From positions 1 through 13,947 of the forward strand of contig CAKZMS010000646.1 in NCBI GenBank assembly GCA_937128785.1: DNA of 13,947 nucleotides, read 5' to 3'. A model generated the notes under the pieces. It was not told where the DNA came from. It worked only from the letters and a program-made list of their open reading frames with translations, and did not search any database. Shown piece after piece: positions 2,144 through 13,028 of the stretch (its first letter is position 1; each line of letters starts with the position of its first letter). The position numbers and the translations under genes are program-made. This DNA is from an uncultured Opitutaceae bacterium. Lineage in GTDB: Bacteria > Verrucomicrobiota > Verrucomicrobiia > Opitutales > Opitutaceae.

Positions 2144-3577
2144 TTACTCCTTCGAAAATTCGAATCCCCACTTACGATTTCCGTAGCCGTAGGTGACCGC
2201 ATCCACGTGATCAATTTTGGTCAACGCATCGTCAAGATCGCCCATGCCGAGTTCCTTTTCGAACGCTTGCAGGCGGGCATCGTATTTTGAAAGGACCCGG
2301 GCTTTGCTGGCATCATCCAAGAAGGAGTGAGTGAGGGAATTACGGCCGAGTTGGGTCAGTTCCTCCCAGGACAAGTTAAAGTAGGTCACCGCCGTGTAGT
2401 ATTCGTCGGTCATATTGCTGTCCCACATGCCGCGATCATCCGTGTTGAGGCACACGGGCACCCCGGTGCGCAGCAACTCGGGGAAGGGGTGTTGGCTGAG
2501 GTCAGGCACATATTCGAGGAGCTCGTTCGAAATCAACTGCACCTCGATCAGGGCGCGATCACTGTGCTGGAGCATCAATAGGGTGTCGGGGTCGCCGAGA
2601 ATATTGACGCCGTGGCCGATCCGGGTGGCTCCGAGGAGGAGGGTTTCGCGGATGTTCTTGTCCGGACTGTCCATTTCGCCGGCATGGATGGACAGCGGCA
2701 GGGTGGGGTATTGGGAGCGCATTTTCCGATAGGTATCCAGAAAGCGCAGCGGGTAGCCTTTCCCGCTCTCCTCGATGCCCGCCATGTTGATGCCCACCCA
2801 GCGGTCACGATGCGCGTTGACCCAGGCATAGGTGATTTCCAGGTCCTGCAACGCGTTGGGCGAAAAACGGAGAATGGTCTCCAAAAAGCGCAGCTCCATT
2901 CCGGTATCCGCGACGTCGGGCTGGGCCAGGCGCTGCTCCATCATCAGCAAGGCCTCCTCGTCGGACAGGACGGTGCCGTCATTGGTGGTCATGGTATAGA
3001 GGCCGAACATCGTCTCCAAGTAGATCAGCCCCTCGGCGGCGAAGGCCTTGATGTGTTCGGCCAGAAACTCGAACCGGACATGAGGGTTGCGGTGCATGTC
3101 GCCGAGGCGATCCCACGTGTAGGCAAAAAACTCGTGGCGACCCTCGCCGGGGGCATCGAGGCGGAAGGCATTGAGCCATTCCGTGCGTTGGTCATCGGAA
3201 AGCTCGAGCAAGAGCACGTATTCACTCTGTTTTTGGGGATCTAGTTGATCGTAAGTGTGCTGGCGGATCGTGTGGTAGCGCACCCGCGGGTCGACGGCAT
3301 CAGGCGATACGGCAAAACGGGCGCGGGTGTAGAACGTGTCTCCGCCATTCCGGGTGGAGTCGGTCAGGATATCCCATTTCCACTCGGGAATGATGGATCC
3401 GCCGAAGTGGTTGTGCAGATCTCCTCCCTTGGGCAGCGCGTAGAGAAATTTGTAGAGCTGTTCGGGGGTCGCGGACACTTTGATGGCCTCGTAGCGAGCG
3501 GCAAAGTCGGCTGCGGACAGGCTGGTCGAGGTGAGCGAGAACAAGAGGAGCGTTAACCGGACGAGGCGCATGATCAT
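2144..3577 (-). CDS. Exported adenosine deaminase family protein (ADGF-like)
   Basis: This is a metal-dependent amidohydrolase of the adenosine deaminase family, expected to hydrolyse the 6-amino group of adenosine or a related purine nucleoside outside the cytoplasm. From the ATG at 3577 the protein has 477 residues. It begins with MIMRLVRLTLLLFSL, a signal peptide ending near residue 22. Visible family motifs are the zinc-binding H-x-H in GGDLHNHFGGS (H55, H57), SIHAGE (H298, catalytic E301), GATRIGHG (H322) and LNTDDRG (D380, D381). It is longer than cytoplasmic Add (about 330), mostly through an N-terminal insert, as in secreted ADGF/CECR1-type enzymes. An upstream in-frame TTG at 3607 is possible but puts ten residues before the signal peptide, and no ribosome site favours either start. 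After TDD the residue is Arg rather than the usual Pro, so substrate choice may differ. It is divergent from the adenine deaminase gene. Confidence 0.88.
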   Translation of the reverse strand: MIMRLVRLTLLLFSLTSTSLSAADFAARYEAIKVSATPEQLYKFLYALPKGGDLHNHFGGSIIPEWKWDILTDSTRNGGDTFYTRARFAVSPDAVDPRVRYHTIRQHTYDQLDPQKQSEYVLLLELSDDQRTEWLNAFRLDAPGEGRHEFFAYTWDRLGDMHRNPHVRFEFLAEHIKAFAAEGLIYLETMFGLYTMTTNDGTVLSDEEALLMMEQRLAQPDVADTGMELRFLETILRFSPNALQDLEITYAWVNAHRDRWVGINMAGIEESGKGYPLRFLDTYRKMRSQYPTLPLSIHAGEMDSPDKNIRETLLLGATRIGHGVNILGDPDTLLMLQHSDRALIEVQLISNELLEYVPDLSQHPFPELLRTGVPVCLNTDDRGMWDSNMTDEYYTAVTYFNLSWEELTQLGRNSLTHSFLDDASKARVLSKYDARLQAFEKELGMGDLDDALTKIDHVDAVTYGYGNRKWGFEFSKE

Positions 3578-3651
3578 GAAAAAGCACCACAGCTGGGATC
3601 GGGCCAATTTAAAAGCTGATTGGTGGCATTGGTAGTGCTTGTATCAAGTTT
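3578..3651. promoter_or_regulatory. Divergent promoter region between two purine deaminase genes
   Basis: This 74-base spacer separates the starts of two divergently transcribed deaminase genes, so it must hold both promoters if they are transcribed from here. It contains an AT-rich stretch (AATTTAAAAG, about 3606-3615). A weak possible + strand pair is TTGGTG (3620-3625) and TATCAA (3642-3647) with a 16-base spacer, but this would leave almost no leader. Neither start has a clear Shine-Dalgarno sequence. No operator could be identified with confidence. Confidence 0.4.
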
Positions 3652-5457
3652 ATGGCTCTTACCCGATTCTCTGTTCCCCCACTACATACTGTTACCCGTC
3701 AACTGGCCGCCGTGGCGATGGGGCAGGCCGAGCCGGACCTAGTGATTCGTGGTGCCCGGGTCTTGTCGACCTACACGGAACGCATTCGCCCGGATCGGGA
3801 AATTTGGGTCAAGGCCGGCCGAATCGCGGCGGTGCAGCCCACGGGCACCTGGAAAAAAACCAAGGGCAGTCAGGTCACTCAATTCGATGCCAAGGGGGGC
3901 ATTGTGGCCCCGGGGTTGGTCGATCCACACATCCACATCGAGAGCTCCATGATGACGGCCTGTGCCTACGCCGAGGGGGCGTTGTTAAACGGCACGACCA
4001 CGATTTTCTGCGACAGTCATGAAATTGGCAACGTGTGTGACACAGCGGGGGTGGAGTGGATGCTCAAAGATGCCCGGCAGGCCCCGTTGAACATTTTCCT
4101 GACCGTGCCCAGCACCGTTCCGGCGACCTCACCGCACTTTGAAACGGCAGGGGGCGACCTTACCGCGCTGAAGATTGGGGCGCTCTTCGACAAGTGGCCG
4201 GAAGCTCAGGCGCTGGGCGAGAAAATGGATTTTGTGCAGGTTGCGATGGGGGATGAGCGCAGCCACGCCATCCTGGCCGAGGCGATCAAACGCCGCAAAC
4301 CCGTCAGTGGACACATCTACGGCCGGGAGTTCGTCGCAGCGGGGGCGGCCAGTGGCATCAACGATACCCACGAATCGATCGATCGGGAGATTGCCGATGA
4401 TTTTCTGGAGAATGGCTTTTGGATCTTCCTGCGCGGAGGACCGCCAACCACGCCGTGGCATTCCCTGCCGGAAGCGATCAAGACGGTGACCGAATTGGGC
4501 GCCAATCCCAAGCGCGTCTGCGTGTGCACGGACGATCGTGACGCGGACGACCTGTTTTTGTTCGGGCAGGATTGGGTGGTGCGGGAGGCGGTGAAAGCCG
4601 GAATGTCCCGCGAGGCCGCTTGGTCAATGGGTTCACTTCACGGCGCGACCCGATTCCACCATGACGATGACATTGGTGGAATGGGCCCGGCCCGACGCGC
4701 TGATTTGGTGCTGTTGGACGATGACTTGAATCCGCAATGCACCTGGTATGGCGGCGAATTGGTGGTGAAGAACCGGCGCGTCACCCCTTTGCTGGAGGAA
4801 AGCCTCTCCCAGCCGTATCGCTATCCAAAGGCGGCCTACCGGACCATCAAGCTGCCCAAGGCGCCCAAGCTAACGCCGGATCTTCCGACCAAGCCCGTCG
4901 TGGCGAATACGATCCGAACCGAACTACCCGGTATTATTCTCTTTCACGACCAAGTGAAACTCACTCCGGCCGCTGAGTGGGGAGAACACTTCAAGAAACA
5001 CGACCTGTGTTTCGTCAGCGTGGTGGAGCGGCACGGTAAATCCGGCAAAGTTGCTCACGGACTGCTGCGCAAATTTGGCCTCAAATCCGGGGCGGTCGCG
5101 AGCAGCGTGGGTCACGATGCCCACAACATCATTATCGCCGGAACCAATGAGCCGGACATGAAACTGGCCTTGGATACGATCAAGCAGAGTCGGGGAGGGG
5201 TCTGTATTGTTAAAAATGGTAAAGTGCTGGCGGCAGTCGAGTTACCCATTGCGGGTCTTTTGTCGGACCAACGGGCCAAAGTGATCGCCAAGGCGACCAC
5301 GAAGCTTAAGCGGGCTTGGAGCCAGGCGGGGTGCACCCTGCCATACATGGGATTTAATCTGATCCCGCTCTCGGTGATCCCGGAAATCCGCATCACCGAT
5401 CAGGGGCTGGTGACGGTCCCGGGCATGGAATTGGTGCCGCTTTTTGAAAATCAGTAG
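3652..5457 (+). CDS. Adenine deaminase family protein with altered metal-centre residues
   Basis: The 601-residue protein matches adenine deaminase (adenine to hypoxanthine plus ammonia) over its whole length. The N-terminal part, [20 protein letters not shown], aligns with the start of typical Ade proteins and supports the ATG at 3652. The amidohydrolase barrel follows, with [11 protein letters not shown] (H93, H95), SHEIGNV (H123), SGHIYG (H221), DTHES (H240) and CTDDRD (D294). The C-terminal Ade-specific domain includes [23 protein letters not shown] and LPIAGLLS. Two positions differ from classical Ade. The Glu of the GLAEVM segment, which I take as a metal ligand, is Gln196 in DFVQVAM, and the IREGS loop reads LRGGP. 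It could be adenine deaminase with an adapted site, or a paralogue for another purine. It is cytoplasmic, as no signal peptide is seen. It is divergent from the exported deaminase and 121 bases upstream of the TonB receptor gene. Confidence 0.85.
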
Positions 5458-5578: not shown

Positions 5579-7999
5579 ATGAACCGACTGAAAACTACCT
5601 ACCTACCGCTGGTCGCCTTGCTCGCCAGCGTTGTTCCCTTCACTTCGGCCCAAGACGCCGAAGAGGAAGCCATCGAGATGGAGGAATTCAAAGTGAGTGA
5701 TGTTCCCATCGAGGAAAACATCGTTCCGAGTTCCCGTCCCTTCAACTCCGTCTACGGCTCAGACCGTAACATCGTCGATACGCCCCGCAGCGTGACCATC
5801 ATCTCTCGCGAACAGCTTGATGCCATCAGCATCAAGACCCCGCGGGATTTCGCCAAACTCACATCCTCCTCTTATACCAAGAGCAACTTCGGCGCTCCCA
5901 CTTCGCCGAATCTGCGTGGTCAGGAAGCGGATATGTTCGTGAACGGCAGCCGCAAGGGTCTTACCTCCAATGGTAATGGGCTCCCGATCAATTTTAACGC
6001 GGTTGAATCCGTTAATATCGTCAAAGGCCCGGCCGGTCCGGTCTACGGCACCTCGAGCTACCTCGGCGGTTATGCCGACCTGATCACCAAGCGTGCCTTC
6101 TTCGACGGACCGCGCGGCGAAGCTTCGGTCACCGCGGGATCCTACGATGTCTACTACGGCTCGTTTGATTACGGCGCCCCGATCAGTGATACCTTGGCTT
6201 ACCGTTTTTCGGTCTCCGCCGAGCAATCCAAGGGTTATTATTATCGGGGTAAAAAGGAGACTCAGGCTTTCTACGGCACCATCACCTGGCGTCCGAATGA
6301 TGACTTCGAGCTCTTTGTGGCGGGCGAATACTTCAACGCCGACTACACCGAGAATTGGGGCATGAACCGACCGACTCAGGCGCTCATCGATGATCTGCTT
6401 TACATTCCCAACGCCCAGACCGATGCCGAATACGCGGACTACATCCGTCGTCTTGGCGACGGCACGTCCATCTTCGGAGGCGTCGCGGGCGAAACCGCCG
6501 CATCCGCCTTTGGTGGCGCGGGTTTCGCGACCATCGTTCCCCTCGACTTGGCCAATCCAGTCAAGATCAACCCCCGCCAGCGTCTGCTTGCGCCGGGAGA
6601 TGATTCCGAAGGACAGAACCTCTGGTTCCAAGGTATCGCCAAATGGACGATCTCCGACGAAACCCAATTTGTGTTCAACTCCTACTACCAGTGGATCGAC
6701 CGCAACACCTTCAGCTCCTATCATTACTCCGAGCTGCTCCGCGACAACTGGAGCTGGGACAATTCCGCCTCCTTCATCTTCCGCTCCGACAACTTCGGCT
6801 CCAATGTGGGTCTCCGCTACCGTTATGAAGATGTGTGGTCCGTGAATCACTTCTTCAATGAGCCCGTCAACTTCTGGGATCTGACCCGTGACCCGAATTC
6901 CTGGCGGGTGCCGGATCAAGGTTTCGCCGGATTCCCGACGGTTCCCGATCAGCCTGCTCGTGGTATCCTGAGCGAATGGTATTACGGCGGCACCGGTGGT
7001 CACAGCACCGGTTACGTCTTCGGACCGTTCGCCCAACTCGACTACACCATCGCTGATCGCGTGATCATCGATGTCGGTATCGGTCAGGACTACGTCAACG
7101 CGACCGAAGACGATCCGATCGGAGGCGCCGCCGTCTCCAGTGTCAGCGACACCGTCACCCTCGATAACTACAGCGCCGCGGTGGTCTTCAAAGCGACCGA
7201 CGTTTTCTCGGTCTACGGCAACTTCGGTTATTCGGAAGCTCACCCGGCGGATACCGGAGGTCGCTTTGACGTGGGTGCGTTCGGCACCCCGTTGGAAAGT
7301 GAACTTTTCGAAATTGGTGCGAAGGCGAACTTCATGGACGGCAAGCTCTTCGTGAGCACGGCCTATTTCGATCGCGAATTTACCGCGATCAATCCGGACA
7401 ATACGCGTGATCCTGTTTACCTCGAGGGCATTGAGTTTGAGGTGAACTACCAGCCGACCCGTAATTTCTGGGCCACCTTTGGTTATTCCTACATGAAGTC
7501 CGAACGCACCGCTGGGTTCTTCGCCACGGCCTACACCGCTGATCGCGCCGATGAAACCGGTGGTTTGTTTGTCACGCCCACCTTCGCCAGCCCGGTTAGC
7601 TCCACCACCTTGTTCGATTTCCCCGGGAATCCCCAGCATCAGGCCACCGGTCTGGTCAGCTACAAGTTCGACAACAACTTCGGGGTGCGAGCCAACTTCG
7701 TCTACACCGGACCGTTCTTCCTCGGCTACAATGGCATGGATCTCGACCCGGGTAACGTGTTGTTCATGTTCCTGGCCCCCGGTCAGTCCCAGTTCACCGT
7801 CAACAGCGTGCAGATCCCTGATCAATACGAGATTGACCTGACTGCCTTCTATGAGGCCGAAAGCTGGGAAGCCAGCGTCACGGTCTTCAACGTGACCGAC
7901 GAATTAAACTGGGATGCGCCGAACGCCGGATACGGCAACGGGTCGGTTGTCCTACGTGAGCCGATTCGCTTCGAGGCCACCTTCACCTACAAGTTCTGA
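5579..7999 (+). CDS. TonB-dependent outer-membrane receptor
   Basis: This 806-residue protein is an active outer-membrane importer energised by TonB. It has a signal peptide (residues 1-24, cleaved before QDAEEE). A likely TonB box follows (about 33-40, EMEEFKVS). The plug domain (about 60-175) includes TPRSVTIISREQLD, LRGQEADMFVNG and VESVNIVKGPAGPVYG. The rest is a long beta-barrel rich in aromatic strands, including a late VTVFNVTDELNWDAPNAG segment, ending in the typical terminal Phe (EATFTYKF). The length fits the family. The ATG at 5579 is the only start giving an intact signal peptide, although no Shine-Dalgarno sequence is visible. Third codon positions lean strongly to C, unlike neighbouring genes, which suggests high expression. 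The ligand is unknown. The surrounding purine genes make a nucleoside, nucleobase or nucleotide ligand a reasonable guess, while the plug resembles siderophore-type receptors. Confidence 0.93.
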   Translation: MNRLKTTYLPLVALLASVVPFTSAQDAEEEAIEMEEFKVSDVPIEENIVPSSRPFNSVYGSDRNIVDTPRSVTIISREQLDAISIKTPRDFAKLTSSSYTKSNFGAPTSPNLRGQEADMFVNGSRKGLTSNGNGLPINFNAVESVNIVKGPAGPVYGTSSYLGGYADLITKRAFFDGPRGEASVTAGSYDVYYGSFDYGAPISDTLAYRFSVSAEQSKGYYYRGKKETQAFYGTITWRPNDDFELFVAGEYFNADYTENWGMNRPTQALIDDLLYIPNAQTDAEYADYIRRLGDGTSIFGGVAGETAASAFGGAGFATIVPLDLANPVKINPRQRLLAPGDDSEGQNLWFQGIAKWTISDETQFVFNSYYQWIDRNTFSSYHYSELLRDNWSWDNSASFIFRSDNFGSNVGLRYRYEDVWSVNHFFNEPVNFWDLTRDPNSWRVPDQGFAGFPTVPDQPARGILSEWYYGGTGGHSTGYVFGPFAQLDYTIADRVIIDVGIGQDYVNATEDDPIGGAAVSSVSDTVTLDNYSAAVVFKATDVFSVYGNFGYSEAHPADTGGRFDVGAFGTPLESELFEIGAKANFMDGKLFVSTAYFDREFTAINPDNTRDPVYLEGIEFEVNYQPTRNFWATFGYSYMKSERTAGFFATAYTADRADETGGLFVTPTFASPVSSTTLFDFPGNPQHQATGLVSYKFDNNFGVRANFVYTGPFFLGYNGMDLDPGNVLFMFLAPGQSQFTVNSVQIPDQYEIDLTAFYEAESWEASVTVFNVTDELNWDAPNAGYGNGSVVLREPIRFEATFTYKF

Positions 8000-8085: not shown

Positions 8086-9144
8086 TCAGCTATCGGGGCA
8101 GAATCCGTAGAGCTGATCGTCGCGACCCTTACCGGGCCAGTTTACCTGATCGACCCGCAGGTGCTGCATGGCGGCGAAGACCGCTTCGTTGAGAGCGGCC
8201 TCAAATCCGAAGATCGAGAGTAAGGGCGGGGCATCCACCTTGATGACGTAGGCGGAGGCGCCAACGCCCCGCAGCATATCGACGCTGCGTTTGACCATTT
8301 CGGCTTCCCCGGCGCCATCGCCCTGAAGAATTACCACGGGTTTCGGCTGGGCAGTCATTTGCTGGAACGGGCCGTGGGCGAACTGGAGAAAATCGGAGAT
8401 TCCCGGGCAGCTCCAAAACAGGCCCTCCATAAACTTACACGCCAGGTTCTGGGAGTAGTCTGAAATCGGCGCGGCGGTGATGAGATTGAACCCCGCCGCA
8501 AACGCACTCGGCAAGTTGCACATGGCGTCCTTGAGCCCTTCGGGCGCCTGCTGACTGAGCAGCGGGAGCAGGCTCTCCGCGCAGGGCAGTGGAGCGCGGG
8601 ACGCAGGGAACTGCCCGGCAAACTGCAGACAGGCCAAATAGCCGGCCAGAGGGCCCACAAAGCGGATGAGGGTCGTATACTCTTCGGCCAACGGGAACAC
8701 GACTAACTCACCGCCCCTAACCGTGAGGTCTCGGAGTAGTTGCGCGCGGTCAGGTTTGCCGGCCGCCTCGGCGTCCTCGGGCGTGGTGGCCGTGAACAGG
8801 ACGCAATGATCGAAATCTGGACTGCGCTGTAGCGCTATCTGAGCGTTGGGAGACAATCCCTGGCTGAAGACCACGAGGGTCTTGCCCAAAAAGTTCACGG
8901 CCGGACTATCCACGAATCCGGAGAGGGGAAGGTAGGCCGCGCTGCGGTCGGTGTGGAGATTCAGCAGGGTCGAAAGATACCGGGCATGGGCCTCGGAACT
9001 GCCGGTCCCGGTGATGATGAAACGCTGCCCCTCGAGGGTCCTCTGATTCAGGGGCTTCGGTCCCTCGGCGAGCATGGACCCCAGGATTGAGGGGATGAGC
9101 GACAGGCGTTCAGCCAGAAGTTCGTGTCCGAGTGGATCAGCCAT
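8086..9144 (-). CDS. SIS-domain protein (sugar isomerase/AgaS-GlmS isomerase-domain type)
   Basis: The 352-residue product has two SIS (sugar isomerase) lobes, the fold that binds phosphosugars and catalyses aldose-ketose isomerisation or amino-sugar deamination. In the first lobe, FIITGTGSSEAHARYL (42-57) and VVFSQGLSPNAQIAL (91-105) match the phosphate-binding loops. The second lobe contains SDYSQNLACKFMEGLFW and FLQFAHGPFQQM, like the K-x-x-E and EFxHGP elements of GlmS-type isomerases. I choose the ATG at 9144 over an upstream in-frame start at 9225 because it has a plausible GAGG ribosome site and lies ten bases after the cyclohydrolase stop; the longer form would overlap that gene by 71 bases. 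It is the last gene of the - strand run, ending at the shared terminator. Context suggests a sugar-phosphate product of a purine nucleotide as substrate, but this is inference and the exact reaction cannot be read from sequence. Confidence 0.82.
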   Translation of the reverse strand: MADPLGHELLAERLSLIPSILGSMLAEGPKPLNQRTLEGQRFIITGTGSSEAHARYLSTLLNLHTDRSAAYLPLSGFVDSPAVNFLGKTLVVFSQGLSPNAQIALQRSPDFDHCVLFTATTPEDAEAAGKPDRAQLLRDLTVRGGELVVFPLAEEYTTLIRFVGPLAGYLACLQFAGQFPASRAPLPCAESLLPLLSQQAPEGLKDAMCNLPSAFAAGFNLITAAPISDYSQNLACKFMEGLFWSCPGISDFLQFAHGPFQQMTAQPKPVVILQGDGAGEAEMVKRSVDMLRGVGASAYVIKVDAPPLLSIFGFEAALNEAVFAAMQHLRVDQVNWPGKGRDDQLYGFCPDS

Positions 9145-9154
9145 GGGAGTCGCC

Positions 9155-10765
9155 TCAATCGCTGATGGAATCGTCGTCGATGAAGATCCAGCGTTCGACC
9201 TCGATGCGGTGTTGCTGGAGCGCAATGGAGTATTCCGGTTTCTTCACCAGACTCGCCGGCGAATTCATGATCATCTGGATCTTGTCGCTCTTGAGATGCT
9301 GCTTCAGCAACGAAATCGAGGCTTCGTAGTCCCGACTATCGTAGTCCACTCCGATCCGGCGATATGCCTCGTCGGTGGACAACGCCAGACCCGCCTCGGA
9401 CAGCATGAGATCGGTCGCATACGCGCCGAAGCCGGCGCCGCGACCATCATTGTAGATGAGTTGGATGACGCCCACGCCGTAGGTCACGATCTGTTTGACC
9501 GACTGTTTGAATTTATCGCGGTTTTCCACCGTCCGCAGCGGGAAGCGGTTGAAGAGGGACTCGCTGTGCAGGCGGACCACCGGGATGTCGTAGATTTTGG
9601 CCTTCCCGTGGGTCAGCACGACAAACTCCTGAGTGGTCACGATATCATAGTAGACATGGACGCGAAACCAATAGGGGGTGGTGAGGAGATCGACGATGGG
9701 GTCCTCGGGGTTGGCGTCGGCGTAGGCCTTCAGGTTCGCCGCGTGGATCTGCACGAGGAAACGGTTTCCGCGGATTAAGGAGTAGTTCGTGATGAGCGGA
9801 TTTTCTTCGCTCATGTAATCTTCGATTTTCTTTTCACCGAAGAACTCCCGGAATTGTTCGTTGTTAAGCAGCACCTCGTCATCCACCGGCTTCATCGGCA
9901 GGAAATAACTGGCGGAATAAACGAAACGTTTGGCCTGGGGCAGGGCGTGAGGTTTGAACGGGACGACGGGTTCCGGGGGCAGGGCGCGTTTGACCCGGGT
10001 TGCGGATGGTCGGTTCAGGATATGTCCGCTGGCGGCCTTCGATGTCAGGTAAGCGAGGTTGAAGGGCGACGGCTCGAATTCCAACGTCTCCGTATTGGCG
10101 ATCTTGATACCCTGGTCCCGCAGCGCGTTCACTTTGTCGGGGTTGTTGGTCAACACGACGAAGGGCGCCTTGATCCCCAATACGTCACAGATGTCGGAGA
10201 TATTGTCGTAGTTGCGGTGATCCTTCTTCAGCCCCATGGAAGCATAGGCTTGGAAAGTGGACAGCTCATCGAGGGAGGCCTGGACCATCATGCGATCCCG
10301 CGACTTGCCCACGTAGCCCACGCCGCGGCCCTCTTGCATGAGATAAAACAGGATGCCATTGCCCTTTTCCGCGATGACCTTGAATGCGCCTTCCAATTGT
10401 TGCACGCAGTCACAATCGCAGCCCCGGAGGGTTTCACTGGTTACGCAGGAGGAGTGCAACCGGGTGTAGAGCACTTCCGCCTGGTCGATGTCTCCATGGG
10501 CGAGGGCGATGATGTAGTGCTTGTCGATGATGTCCTGGAAAATATGAGTCCGGAAGGTGCCGAACCGGGTCTCCAGCGAACAAGTCGCAATGTAGAGGGT
10601 GGTTCCGCGTAGCGGGCGATCATCGATGGATTCGGGTTTCAGCAGGCTGCCAGTGGCATGCTGCATTTCCCCCACCAAGCGTTGAAACTCAACGGGTATG
10701 TTGGGGAACAATAGTTCACCATCGGTGGAAGCGGGTAACTGAGTCTGGGAAATGGAATCACTCAT
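9155..10765 (-). CDS. Tandem-domain GTP cyclohydrolase II homologue (RibA-like), probably not the riboflavin enzyme
   Basis: GTP cyclohydrolase II opens the imidazole ring of GTP, releasing formate and pyrophosphate. This 536-residue protein holds two such domains. The first (about 50-225) has RLHSSC (C107) and CDC (C118, C120) with the family zinc spacing C-x10-C-x-C, QEGRGVG (144-150), DHRNY (D182, R184) and LTNNPDKV (205-212). The catalytic Tyr expected after K-x-R is replaced: the segment reads KSRDRMMVQ (154-162), giving Arg158 or Met159 there. The second (about 325-530) has RLHSES with Ser403 in place of the first Cys, Glu414 and Arg416 at the other two zinc positions, NDGRGAG (439-445), DSRDY (D476, R478) and MNSP (500-503). 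RibA is about 200 residues, or about 400 when fused to RibB; this is neither. The gene lies 33 bases after the permease and 10 before the SIS gene, so it is probably in their operon. The URC1 proteins of uracil catabolism are another known divergent branch. Confidence 0.88.
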   Translation of the reverse strand: MSDSISQTQLPASTDGELLFPNIPVEFQRLVGEMQHATGSLLKPESIDDRPLRGTTLYIATCSLETRFGTFRTHIFQDIIDKHYIIALAHGDIDQAEVLYTRLHSSCVTSETLRGCDCDCVQQLEGAFKVIAEKGNGILFYLMQEGRGVGYVGKSRDRMMVQASLDELSTFQAYASMGLKKDHRNYDNISDICDVLGIKAPFVVLTNNPDKVNALRDQGIKIANTETLEFEPSPFNLAYLTSKAASGHILNRPSATRVKRALPPEPVVPFKPHALPQAKRFVYSASYFLPMKPVDDEVLLNNEQFREFFGEKKIEDYMSEENPLITNYSLIRGNRFLVQIHAANLKAYADANPEDPIVDLLTTPYWFRVHVYYDIVTTQEFVVLTHGKAKIYDIPVVRLHSESLFNRFPLRTVENRDKFKQSVKQIVTYGVGVIQLIYNDGRGAGFGAYATDLMLSEAGLALSTDEAYRRIGVDYDSRDYEASISLLKQHLKSDKIQMIMNSPASLVKKPEYSIALQQHRIEVERWIFIDDDSISD

Positions 10766-10798: not shown

Positions 10799-12136
10799 TT
10801 AGCCGGAGAACGGAAAGATATGAAAGAATTCGAGAAAAAATATTCCGGCGATGATGTAGCCGGTGACCGGAAAGTCCTTGGCGCGGCCGGTGGTGAGTGC
10901 GAGGAGAGCGGCGGCGATCAAGCCGAGGCCGATACCCTCGGCGATGCTGAAAGTCAGCGGGATGCACAAAATGGTGAGCATGGCCGGCGCCGCGACCTTG
11001 AAGTCATCCATTTTGATCTCGGTGACCGATTGAAGCATGAAAATACCGACCACCACGAGAGCCGGGGCGGTTGCGGCGGCGGGCACCGCGAGGATCAAGG
11101 GAGTTAAAAACAGGGCAAGCAGCATCAGCCCGGCGACGACCACCGCGGTCAGTCCCGTGCGTCCCCCCGCCTCCACGCCGGAGGCTGACTCAATGTAGCT
11201 GACCACGGTGGATGTGCCAAACAACGAGCTGAGGATAGCCGCAATGGAGTCAGCCACCAAGGCCCGGCCGGCCTTGGGCAGGTGACCATTTTCATCCAGC
11301 ATGCCGGCCCGCTTGGTGACACCGATGAGCGTGCCGATGTTGTCGAACATATCGACCATCAGCAGCGTGAGAATCAAGGGCAGGGCGGCCAGAAAGGCGG
11401 TTGAGTTGGTGAGAAACCCGAATTCGAGTTTGAAGAAAACCGGTGCCGCGGAGGCGGGTAGATCCACAAAGCTGGTAGGCAGGGTGGTCACTTTTCCCTC
11501 GGTGCCATTAGGCACAAAAAGTCCGACGATAGTCGTGATCGCGATGCCCAGGATGATGGCTCCCGGCACTCCGCGTGCGACCAAGACGATGGTGAGAGCG
11601 ATGCCCAGCAGGCAGACGAGCACCGGGCCGGAAGTGAAGTCGCCGTGACTGACAAGGGTTGCCGGATTATCAACGATGACGCCGCCATTCTTCAGCCCGA
11701 TGAAGGCAATAAAGAGACCGATGCCACACGTGATCGCGATTTTCAGTGAGTAGGGGATCGACTTAACGATCTTCTCGCGCACACCCGTGACCGAAAGGAG
11801 GAGGAACATCACACCGTTTACGAACACCATACCCAGCGCCTCCTGCCAGCGGACACCGGCACCGATTACGATGGTGTAGGTGAAGAACGCGTTGATCCCC
11901 ATGCCCGGAGCGAGGGCGAGCGGGAAGTTGGTCAACGCGGCCATGAGGATGGTGCTGACGGCCGCAGTCAGGGCGGTGACGGTGACCAATGCTCCCTGAT
12001 CCATCCCGGTGGCGGAGAGGATGGAAGGATTCACCGCCAGGATGTAGGCCATGGCCGCGAAGGTGGTAAGGCCGGCCTGAAGTTCACGTGGAACCGAAGT
12101 TCCGTTGGCAGAAAGTTTAAACAGTCGTTCGAACAT
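10799..12136 (-). CDS. Purine nucleobase permease (NCS2 family, AzgA/PbuG type)
   Basis: This is an inner-membrane proton-coupled importer of adenine, guanine or hypoxanthine. The 445-residue product has the AzgA-branch signatures: APGMGINAFF (76-85), WQEALGMVFVNGVMF (97-111), VDMFDNIGTLIG (261-272), GTSTVVSYIESASG (307-320) and GGRTGLTA (324-331), with long hydrophobic stretches between them consistent with 12-14 membrane segments. The length is normal. This branch prefers purines, whereas the UraA/XanQ branch of NCS2 has different signature residues. It starts 94 bases after the DUF3891 gene, a gap holding a stable hairpin, and is followed closely by the cyclohydrolase gene. It links this operon with purine bases rather than uracil. 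Confidence 0.93.
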   Translation of the reverse strand: MFERLFKLSANGTSVPRELQAGLTTFAAMAYILAVNPSILSATGMDQGALVTVTALTAAVSTILMAALTNFPLALAPGMGINAFFTYTIVIGAGVRWQEALGMVFVNGVMFLLLSVTGVREKIVKSIPYSLKIAITCGIGLFIAFIGLKNGGVIVDNPATLVSHGDFTSGPVLVCLLGIALTIVLVARGVPGAIILGIAITTIVGLFVPNGTEGKVTTLPTSFVDLPASAAPVFFKLEFGFLTNSTAFLAALPLILTLLMVDMFDNIGTLIGVTKRAGMLDENGHLPKAGRALVADSIAAILSSLFGTSTVVSYIESASGVEAGGRTGLTAVVVAGLMLLALFLTPLILAVPAAATAPALVVVGIFMLQSVTEIKMDDFKVAAPAMLTILCIPLTFSIAEGIGLGLIAAALLALTTGRAKDFPVTGYIIAGIFFLEFFHIFPFSG

Positions 12137-12230: not shown

Positions 12231-13028
12231 TTAATCAGCCGCCAATCGAAGGGTCTTGGTTTCGGTTTCGGCGGCAGCGTAGGCCTCGCGATAACCGGCA
12301 AGATCCGTGCAAGCACCTTTGGGGATTCGCTTAATCGGCAGGGTGAACTCGGCCTCCACATTTCGAAACGGCCAGGGGGTGATCGTGAAACTGGTCTCGC
12401 CGGTTGGTGTACACTTCAGCGCATGGCGTTGTCCCTCTCGATCGGGATGCTGGTGGCGCAGGGTCAGCGGTTGATCATATCCGGCGCACGCCACCAATGA
12501 GAGGTTATCGCAGGCCTGCAGAAACTCGAATCCGCGCTGCAACACGGCCTGATCGAGGGCGAGCCGAGTCCGTTCCGAGCTTTGCCAGTCCTGCTGGGCC
12601 TTCACAAAATCCGCGTGAGGTAGTCGATGCTCGGGGCGGAGGGTGGAAAGGTCCGCCTGCTCGGTCAGCAGATTGACGGTGTGCATCGAGACGATGATGC
12701 CAGCGATGGGATCCTGCTCGGCCACGGCGGAGGTAGCCTTGGCTCTAACCTCCAGGTAGCTAGGCAAGTCAATCTCCTCGAACGCGGAGTAGGCGCCGAC
12801 CAAGGCCCGAGTGAAGGCTTCCGGTTTGCCCGCCGGTGTTAGCTCGGGGTTGGCATCGCGTTGGATCCAACCATCGTCGTGGTGATAGACGGCATAGCGG
12901 ACGGAGTTGAACTCCTCGGGAGCCGCGAAGTAGTCATTTCCCCAGGCGTCGGCAAATTTACCCGCCAACCGAGCATGGTCGGGGTGAGTAATGAGTATCC
13001 ATGAATCTTCGGTTTCAGCGCGGATCAT
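12231..13028 (-). CDS. DUF3891 family protein with HD-like metal-site residues
   Basis: The 265-residue protein resembles DUF3891 (PF13030), a family of unknown function. The features I recognise are HPDHARLAGKFADAW (15-29), the central YHHDDGWIQRDANPEL (48-63) and SMHTVNLL (114-121). The order His, His-Asp, His is what HD-superfamily phosphohydrolases use to bind metal, so a metal-dependent hydrolase is a fair guess, but that is inference. The C-terminal third (about 175-265) is more variable and ends in Ala- and Glu-rich sequence. No signal peptide or membrane segment is seen, so it should be cytoplasmic. It begins nine bases after the amidase stop, so the two are probably co-transcribed. 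A hairpin-containing gap follows before the permease gene. Confidence 0.75.
   Translation of the reverse strand: MIRAETEDSWILITHPDHARLAGKFADAWGNDYFAAPEEFNSVRYAVYHHDDGWIQRDANPELTPAGKPEAFTRALVGAYSAFEEIDLPSYLEVRAKATSAVAEQDPIAGIIVSMHTVNLLTEQADLSTLRPEHRLPHADFVKAQQDWQSSERTRLALDQAVLQRGFEFLQACDNLSLVACAGYDQPLTLRHQHPDREGQRHALKCTPTGETSFTITPWPFRNVEAEFTLPIKRIPKGACTDLAGYREAYAAAETETKTLRLAAD

Follow-up and report, generated by a model that had tools for sequence, protein, structure and literature searches.

A conserved tandem GTP cyclohydrolase II protein with a zinc-free second domain in Verrucomicrobiota, with a probable role in purine degradation

The window, the whole stretch of 13,947 nucleotides that was analysed, contains an open reading frame with an ATG start encoding a tandem GTP cyclohydrolase II (GCH II) protein of 536 amino acids (9155..10765, minus strand), with two PF00925 stretches. 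The minus-strand gene order comprises an amidase whose 5' end lies past the contig end (13038..13946, PF01425), a DUF3891 protein (12231..13028, PF13030), an NCS2-family purine permease (10799..12136, PF00860), the tandem gene, which follows after 33 bases, and, 10 bases downstream of it, a gene for an SIS-domain-like protein of 352 amino acids (8086..9144), a predicted sugar-phosphate deglycase or isomerase. Further genes include a TonB-dependent receptor with a Plug domain (5579..7999, plus strand), an adenine deaminase (3652..5457, plus strand; PF13382 and PF01979, with TIGR01178 at 355.5 bits, below its cut-off of 472.5), and a growth-factor-like adenosine deaminase (2144..3607, minus strand; PF00962, with TIGR01430 and TIGR01431 matches below their cut-offs). 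This block of receptor and two deaminases also stands beside the tandem gene in loci L036, L037, and L038. A riboswitch search near the operon gave no Rfam match in seven sources totalling 132,563 bases.

The first-pass annotation had proposed two GCH II domains in one protein, and the Pfam search bears this out. PF00925 is the sole Pfam family in the protein at E 0.01, covering two stretches; at the DNA level, the match at 10094-10588 scores 131.1 bits and that at 9224-9670 scores 54.2 bits, against a cut-off of 23.3. Domain 1 (residues 59-255; 10001..10591, minus strand) is defined by PF00925 and by alignment to E. coli GCH II (2bz0), at E 1e-28 as a single protein and 2e-36 as a profile. 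Domain 2 (residues 331-532; 9170..9775, minus strand) is defined by its PF00925 match together with hhalign, conserved residues, and dN/dS. Aligned against each other by hhalign, with 12 aligned orthologues for each, the two halves share 24% identity across 174 columns (E 9e-18). The protein scores 154 bits with TIGR00505, the curated RibA equivalog, below the 205.85-bit cut-off, and 191.4 with PRK00393, a broader RibA subfamily model with a cut-off of 148. Judged by its sequence, the tandem protein is a real, conserved two-domain GCH II variant.

Residue conservation was assessed in named genomes, where a scan with two search patterns gave 126 matches and 96 relatives, the best 80 of these 96 forming the loci set, with some loci cut by contig ends. 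In domain 1, the predicted zinc ligands C107, C118, and C120 (10406..10447, minus strand) align to the E. coli zinc cysteines and are present in 80/80 loci. With the spacing C107-x10-C118-x-C120 here and no cysteine in the other domain, the earlier description of one zinc-intact and one zinc-free domain holds. D182-H-R184 (10214..10222, minus strand), described at first pass as the counterpart of E. coli D126/R128, is likewise present, with D and R in 80/80 loci of the same set. The RibA position Tyr105 had been assigned to Arg158 or Met159; the alignment to 2bz0, gap-free from the zinc site, places it at Arg158 (10292..10294, minus strand), Arg in 80/80 of these loci, and Met159 is one residue further. 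A K-x3-Y pattern is found in 23/25 RibA-type sequences compared, the remaining two having Met. Further residues invariant in 80/80 of the best 80 of 96 include R102, H104, S105, Q123, E145-G-R147, K154, R156-D-R158-M159, T170, T206-N-N-P, and K211. For most of the E. coli positions that contact GTP, taken to be those of the UniProt annotation, the counterpart is invariant in the same 80 loci; that of E53 is replaced by Ser. Because one of the search patterns contains C116 and C118, the conservation of these pattern residues is partly selected for; the 12 orthologues found without those patterns, some from the same organisms, all carry the three zinc cysteines, R158, D182, and R184.

Domain 2 was counted in the 78 loci that reach it among the best 80 of 96 relatives (L102 and L104 stop short of residue 398, and L091 stops short of 501). 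The motifs RLHS, DGRG, DSRDY, and MNSP, previously read in the second copy, are all present in the translation. D440-G-R442 (9440..9448, minus strand), EGR in RibA, is conserved at D in 75, G in 78, and R in 76 of the 78 loci; D476-S-R478 (9332..9340, minus strand), the D126/R128 counterpart, at D in 74 and R in 76; and R398 and E402 in 76 each. Ser occupies the first zinc position in 73 of the 78, and a cysteine anywhere in residues 403-420 occurs in 3/80 loci of the best 80 of 96. The last cysteine of the window protein is at 193, so its domain 2 is cysteine-free. Of the replacements Ser403, Glu414, and Arg416 named for the three zinc ligands, Ser403 is confirmed, and the other two depend on the alignment, hhalign giving V413/N415 vs E414/R416.

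Between the window and its six nearest relatives, dN/dS was 0.018-0.065 for domain 1 and 0.026-0.134 for domain 2, finite in 5/6 pairs each, the single values being rough because most of these pairs have dS > 1. In 14 closer pairs (dS 0.13-0.72), which overlap and are non-independent, the range was 0 to 0.084 for domain 2 and 0 to 0.085 for domain 1. Mean pairwise identity over 800 sampled pairs was 73% for domain 1, 56% for the linker, and 63% for domain 2. Domain 2 has a little more freedom than domain 1, yet it is constrained by strong purifying selection. The suggestion that the second domain has decayed is therefore unsupported: its own conserved residues persist in 74-76 of the 78 loci, with dN/dS of 0.03-0.13.

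Both tandem domains are placed apart from RibA. A careful tree was built from 67 domains, with five long-branched or paired rows excluded; in it, domain 1 (99/96), domain 2 (100/99), and the degenerate GCH II domains of RibBA (100/100) are each split off by a single branch, and a further branch separates domains 1 and 2 jointly from the rest (99/93). The AU test does not reject a group of domain 2 and the degenerate GCH II domains of RibBA (p-AU 0.186). The joint branch fits the tandem duplication suggested at first pass, and the two domains may have arisen by internal duplication, a history that is tentative because a quick tree warned of long branches meeting.

Full-length orthologues were found in 12/194 genomes of the phylum, the window's included. 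Record titles of the best 80 of 96 relatives name Verrucomicrobia or their members, except for two labelled 'bacterium', one 'PVC group', and one Kiritimatiellae; ponds, fen, and groundwater are among the sources given in the titles of relatives. A plasmid search returned no record covering 80% of the tandem query among 196 with a match. Two genomes carry additional copies: G045 has an intact gene at 219942-221492 and an apparent second, broken copy with pieces in different frames (C1:483098-484124), and G195 has two tandem genes (C1:688471-689805 and 2467702-2469039).

Gene context was compared, using codon-scored gene calls, over 81 loci, namely the window and the best 80 of 96 relatives. 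The SIS gene recurs in 44 (43 within 3 kb), the NCS2 permease in 26 (22 within 3 kb), the TonB-dependent receptor in 22 (20 within 3 kb), RidA in 21, the amidase in 19, adenosine deaminase and a PF06516 nucleoside permease in 17 each, Amidohydro_2 in 16, a phosphoribosyltransferase (PRT) in 12, DUF3891 in 10 (9 within 3 kb), adenine deaminase and an NMT1-type binding protein in 7 each, and an Amidohydro_1-type deaminase in 6. The SIS gene lies directly downstream of the tandem gene in 41 of the 70 loci that offer 1 kb or more of room, window included. Since these loci had also supplied the neighbour profiles, near and far parts of each locus were compared as a control in the best 80 of 96, setting hits at 5 kb or less against those farther away (636,934 vs 488,231 bases). 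Denser near the gene were SIS (43/0 near/far), PRT (12/0), nucleoside permease (19/1), amidase (18/1), TonB (23/2), NCS2 (23/4), DUF3891 (8/1), RidA (16/5), and, on the opposite strand, Amidohydro_2 (16/0). Adenosine deaminase (10/7), adenine deaminase (5/3), the deaminase (4/2), creatininase (3/4), and formamidase (2/3) lacked clear enrichment in this comparison.

In G045, DUF3891, tandem, SIS, PRT, and deaminase genes follow one another unbroken on one strand, with creatininase-family and formamidase-family genes on the other; in L056, SIS and deaminase form a single 747-aa frame; and in the window's genome, PRT and deaminase lie on contigs C428 and C370, respectively. A creatininase-family and formamidase-family group, in some cases with RidA, was also observed near the tandem gene in L113:3656-6191, L183:11041-12759, L050, L066, L110, and L105. 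The archaeal FAPy deformylase ArfB belongs to the creatininase family.

Of the partner proteins, the SIS-like one is assigned weakly by score. The window SIS-like protein (8086-9144) gave no PF01380 match; weak matches occur in 7/18 of its relatives, the best at E 0.0019, and the SIS chain 3fxa aligns at E 0.11. It carries the motifs GTGSSE and HGPFQ, and GTGSSE and HGP presumably fit SIS isomerases of the GlmS type. The best solved match of the PRT profile is a hypoxanthine-guanine-xanthine phosphoribosyltransferase (E 2.9e-25). Among the neighbouring PRTs, a uracil phosphoribosyltransferase as partner is set aside on this profile result; the UPRTase model scores 26.3 on the PRT of L085, below its cut-off of 27. 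The deaminase matches the chlorohydrolase/guanine-deaminase superfamily.

Co-occurrence was evaluated in 61 Opitutaceae genomes, 24 with the tandem gene and 37 without, G240 and G241 being left out; both domains were found in 23 of the 24, and G215 was counted by a 594-aa frame with an adjoining SIS gene. With kinship ignored, the SIS gene is present in 16/24 tandem vs 0/37 non-tandem genomes (Fisher p 3.6e-9), the deaminase (E 1e-60 or better) in 11/24 vs 4/37 (p 0.005), and the PRT (E 1e-30 or better) in 5/24 vs 0/37 (p 0.007). Eight of the 24 tandem genomes lack the SIS gene, and completeness is at least 96% in five of these. Full-length XdhB, defined as a best match of at least 580 bits (the next genome, the window's own, scoring 176), is present in 0/24 tandem vs 15/37 non-tandem genomes (Fisher p 1.6e-4, genomes treated as independent). 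A RibBA tree of 55 genomes (6/61 had no RibBA row) yielded six supported independent pairs differing in the tandem gene. SIS followed the tandem gene in an average of 5.3 of these pairs and never ran opposite to it (median p 0.06, not significant), XdhB ran opposite in 2.3 and never followed it (median p 0.5, not significant), and the deaminase followed it in 2.7 and ran opposite in 0.2 (p 0.5, not significant).

In 14 control genomes the XdhB model found matches in 5, over its cut-off in 1, and other xanthine dehydrogenases could be missed because the model is narrow. Weak XdhB-superfamily matches occur in 13/24 tandem genomes, including the window's own, and an XdhB-type match of any strength was found in none of the other 11/24 and is lacking in 10/37 non-tandem genomes, so that its absence is not specific to tandem genomes. 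G140, a tandem genome within the family and outside the 61, has no XdhB. Outside the family, the tandem genomes G015, G157, G039, and G048 have no XdhB, and their non-tandem relatives, searched likewise, gave one weak match; as these relatives also lack full-length XdhB, the exclusion adds nothing there.

From sequence, selection, gene context, and co-occurrence, the tandem protein is predicted with moderate confidence to be a purine-nucleotide cyclohydrolase of a purine catabolic route. Its probable task is to open the purine ring within a Verrucomicrobiota route of purine degradation that has not been described before, and the indirect evidence for the catabolic role is good. The earlier proposal of a purine role other than riboflavin synthesis is consistent with this, its support coming from gene context.

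A role in riboflavin synthesis, with the tandem protein a working GTP cyclohydrolase II that replaces a RibBA whose GCH II domain has lost its zinc site, is unlikely. The GCH II domain of RibBA lacks all three zinc cysteines in 54/55 Opitutaceae genomes compared, the sole intact one being that of G060; one such zinc-less domain lies at G000:C243:6959-7405 (L002). RibD_C matches occur in 63/63 genomes, by a model that also matches other reductases, and GCH III in 0/62, which rules out GCH III as the missing riboflavin enzyme. Most Opitutaceae examined have no recognised GTP cyclohydrolase II for riboflavin, and the gap, together with the score over the cut-off of the broad NCBI RibA subfamily model, speaks for such a replacement. 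Against it, the tandem gene is missing from 37 of the 61 Opitutaceae genomes, among them the single-contig G018 and G099, which still have RibBA, and PF00925 finds only that zinc-less RibBA in each. Additionally, outside the family the tandem gene coexists with a RibA-type match (G015, G157), its neighbours are purine genes, and Tyr105 is replaced. By eye, lumazine-synthase (RibH)-like and NusB-like frames stand beside the zinc-less RibBA in G099 and G018 (L131, L133), and the riboflavin operon of both looks kept. G225 encodes a separate RibA-type protein with the cysteines (L115).

Supply of a pyrimidine building block, FAPy or a diaminopyrimidine, to secondary metabolism, a role that may also fall to the Streptomyces Met-variant paralogue, is quite unlikely. 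The Arg that replaces Tyr in 80/80 of the best 80 of 96 loci might indeed stop the reaction at the formylated product, but the identified recurring neighbours include uptake, deaminase, nucleoside permease, and amidase genes, with no recognised biosynthetic cluster, and the Met-bearing homologue on a Streptomyces plasmid groups among canonical RibA. A non-enzymatic role, in which the protein senses nucleotides or regulates the purine locus and its zinc site is structural, would accord with the loss of zinc ligands in one domain and of the catalytic Tyr in the other, but is very unlikely given that the zinc ligands and D-x-R of domain 1 are invariant in 80/80 of those loci.

For the favoured reading, in which the tandem protein opens the ring of a purine nucleotide for degradation, we infer the substrate, the product, the order of steps, and the roles of domain 2 and of every partner as follows. 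Imported nucleosides and bases would be deaminated by adenosine deaminase and adenine deaminase and then converted to the nucleotide by the phosphoribosyltransferase. According to the review PMC10366380, GCH II requires zinc to open the ring but can release pyrophosphate without it, and its Arg128 is in contact with the alpha phosphate. Domain 1 would use its zinc for hydrolysis at C8 of the imidazole ring of the purine, and the product would be a 5-(formyl)amino-6-ribosylaminopyrimidine phosphate. With Arg158 standing where RibA has Tyr, the formyl group may stay in place, a FAPy-type product, and be left to another enzyme. The SIS protein could act as a deglycase that cleaves the ribosylamine of the ring-opened product and releases ribose 5-phosphate; the pyrimidine would be degraded by deaminase, RidA-like, and amidase-type enzymes. 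Domain 2 may bind nucleotide without zinc, either completing a pseudo-dimer or carrying out a zinc-independent half reaction (NTP -> NMP + PPi); it may instead be the pseudo-enzyme suggested at first pass.

A fuller scheme is possible and is offered tentatively: a purine pathway of Verrucomicrobiota free of xanthine dehydrogenase and uric acid, in which the nucleotide is formed first, the tandem cyclohydrolase opens the ring, and the SIS deglycase and deaminase, RidA-like, and amidase enzymes follow, joined in some lineages by creatininase-family and formamidase enzymes. Domain 2 would then be a second, zinc-free active site for the phosphate half, and the whole a purine twin of the URC pathway for uracil. 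If true, it would let nitrogen and carbon be drawn from purines independently of xanthine dehydrogenase, a molybdenum enzyme, and the protein would be a test case for a zinc-free cyclohydrolase domain kept under selection.

Among known systems, RibA (PF00925; E. coli 2bz0/2bz1) shares with domain 1 the family, the zinc cysteines, the D-x-R pair, EGR, and TNNP-x-K. Unlike RibA, the tandem protein has Arg for Tyr105, Ser for E53, a fused second zinc-free domain, and a purine context. The degenerate GCH II domain of Opitutaceae RibBA is also zinc-free and keeps the Arg of D-x-R (54/54), but it forms a clade separate from domain 2 in the best tree, their union not being rejected by the AU test noted above. 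The Streptomyces GCH II paralogue in which Tyr is changed to Met reportedly stops at FAPy. It too has lost the Tyr, but it is single-domain, and the residue in the tandem protein is Arg; as the Met-bearing plasmid homologue L148 falls among canonical RibA, away from domain 1, the parallel drawn in the first-pass annotation is not a close one. Met at the Tyr105 position was seen in the GCH II homologues of a Streptomyces globisporus plasmid (L148) and a Rhizobium plasmid (L144).

Among the open-licence matches listed, no title named a GCH II-type enzyme in purine catabolism. The excerpt of PMC4016543 proposes a new purine route acting on ureidoglycine after allantoin, and mentions no cyclohydrolase.

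The comparison extends to URC1, also a GCH II relative. Membership of the tandem protein in URC1 is rejected, PF12471 being absent from it and present in 0/145 phylum genomes; no match came either from the four plasmid records examined as a source of URC1 for comparison, and URC4 (DUF1688) had no match among the neighbours scanned. URC1 carries an N-terminal PF12471 (GTP_CH_N) domain. PDB entries 7eev and 7ej3, labelled GTP cyclohydrolase II, are UTP cyclohydrolases that we take to be URC1, as presumably is the 'UTP cyclohydrolase' of a published title. A paper of that title stands in the reference list of PMC12507026, as excerpted, and the excerpt of PMC3869809 describes URC1 and URC4, with other enzymes, as converting uracil to urea and 3-hydroxypropionic acid. 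Similarity between URC1 and the tandem protein is very weak (profile E 0.0019), and URC1 keeps the Tyr by alignment reading. The two would share a common catabolic logic, in which a base is converted to its nucleotide and the ring is opened at the nucleotide level; the tandem protein, with purine rather than pyrimidine genes as neighbours, would be the purine counterpart of URC1.
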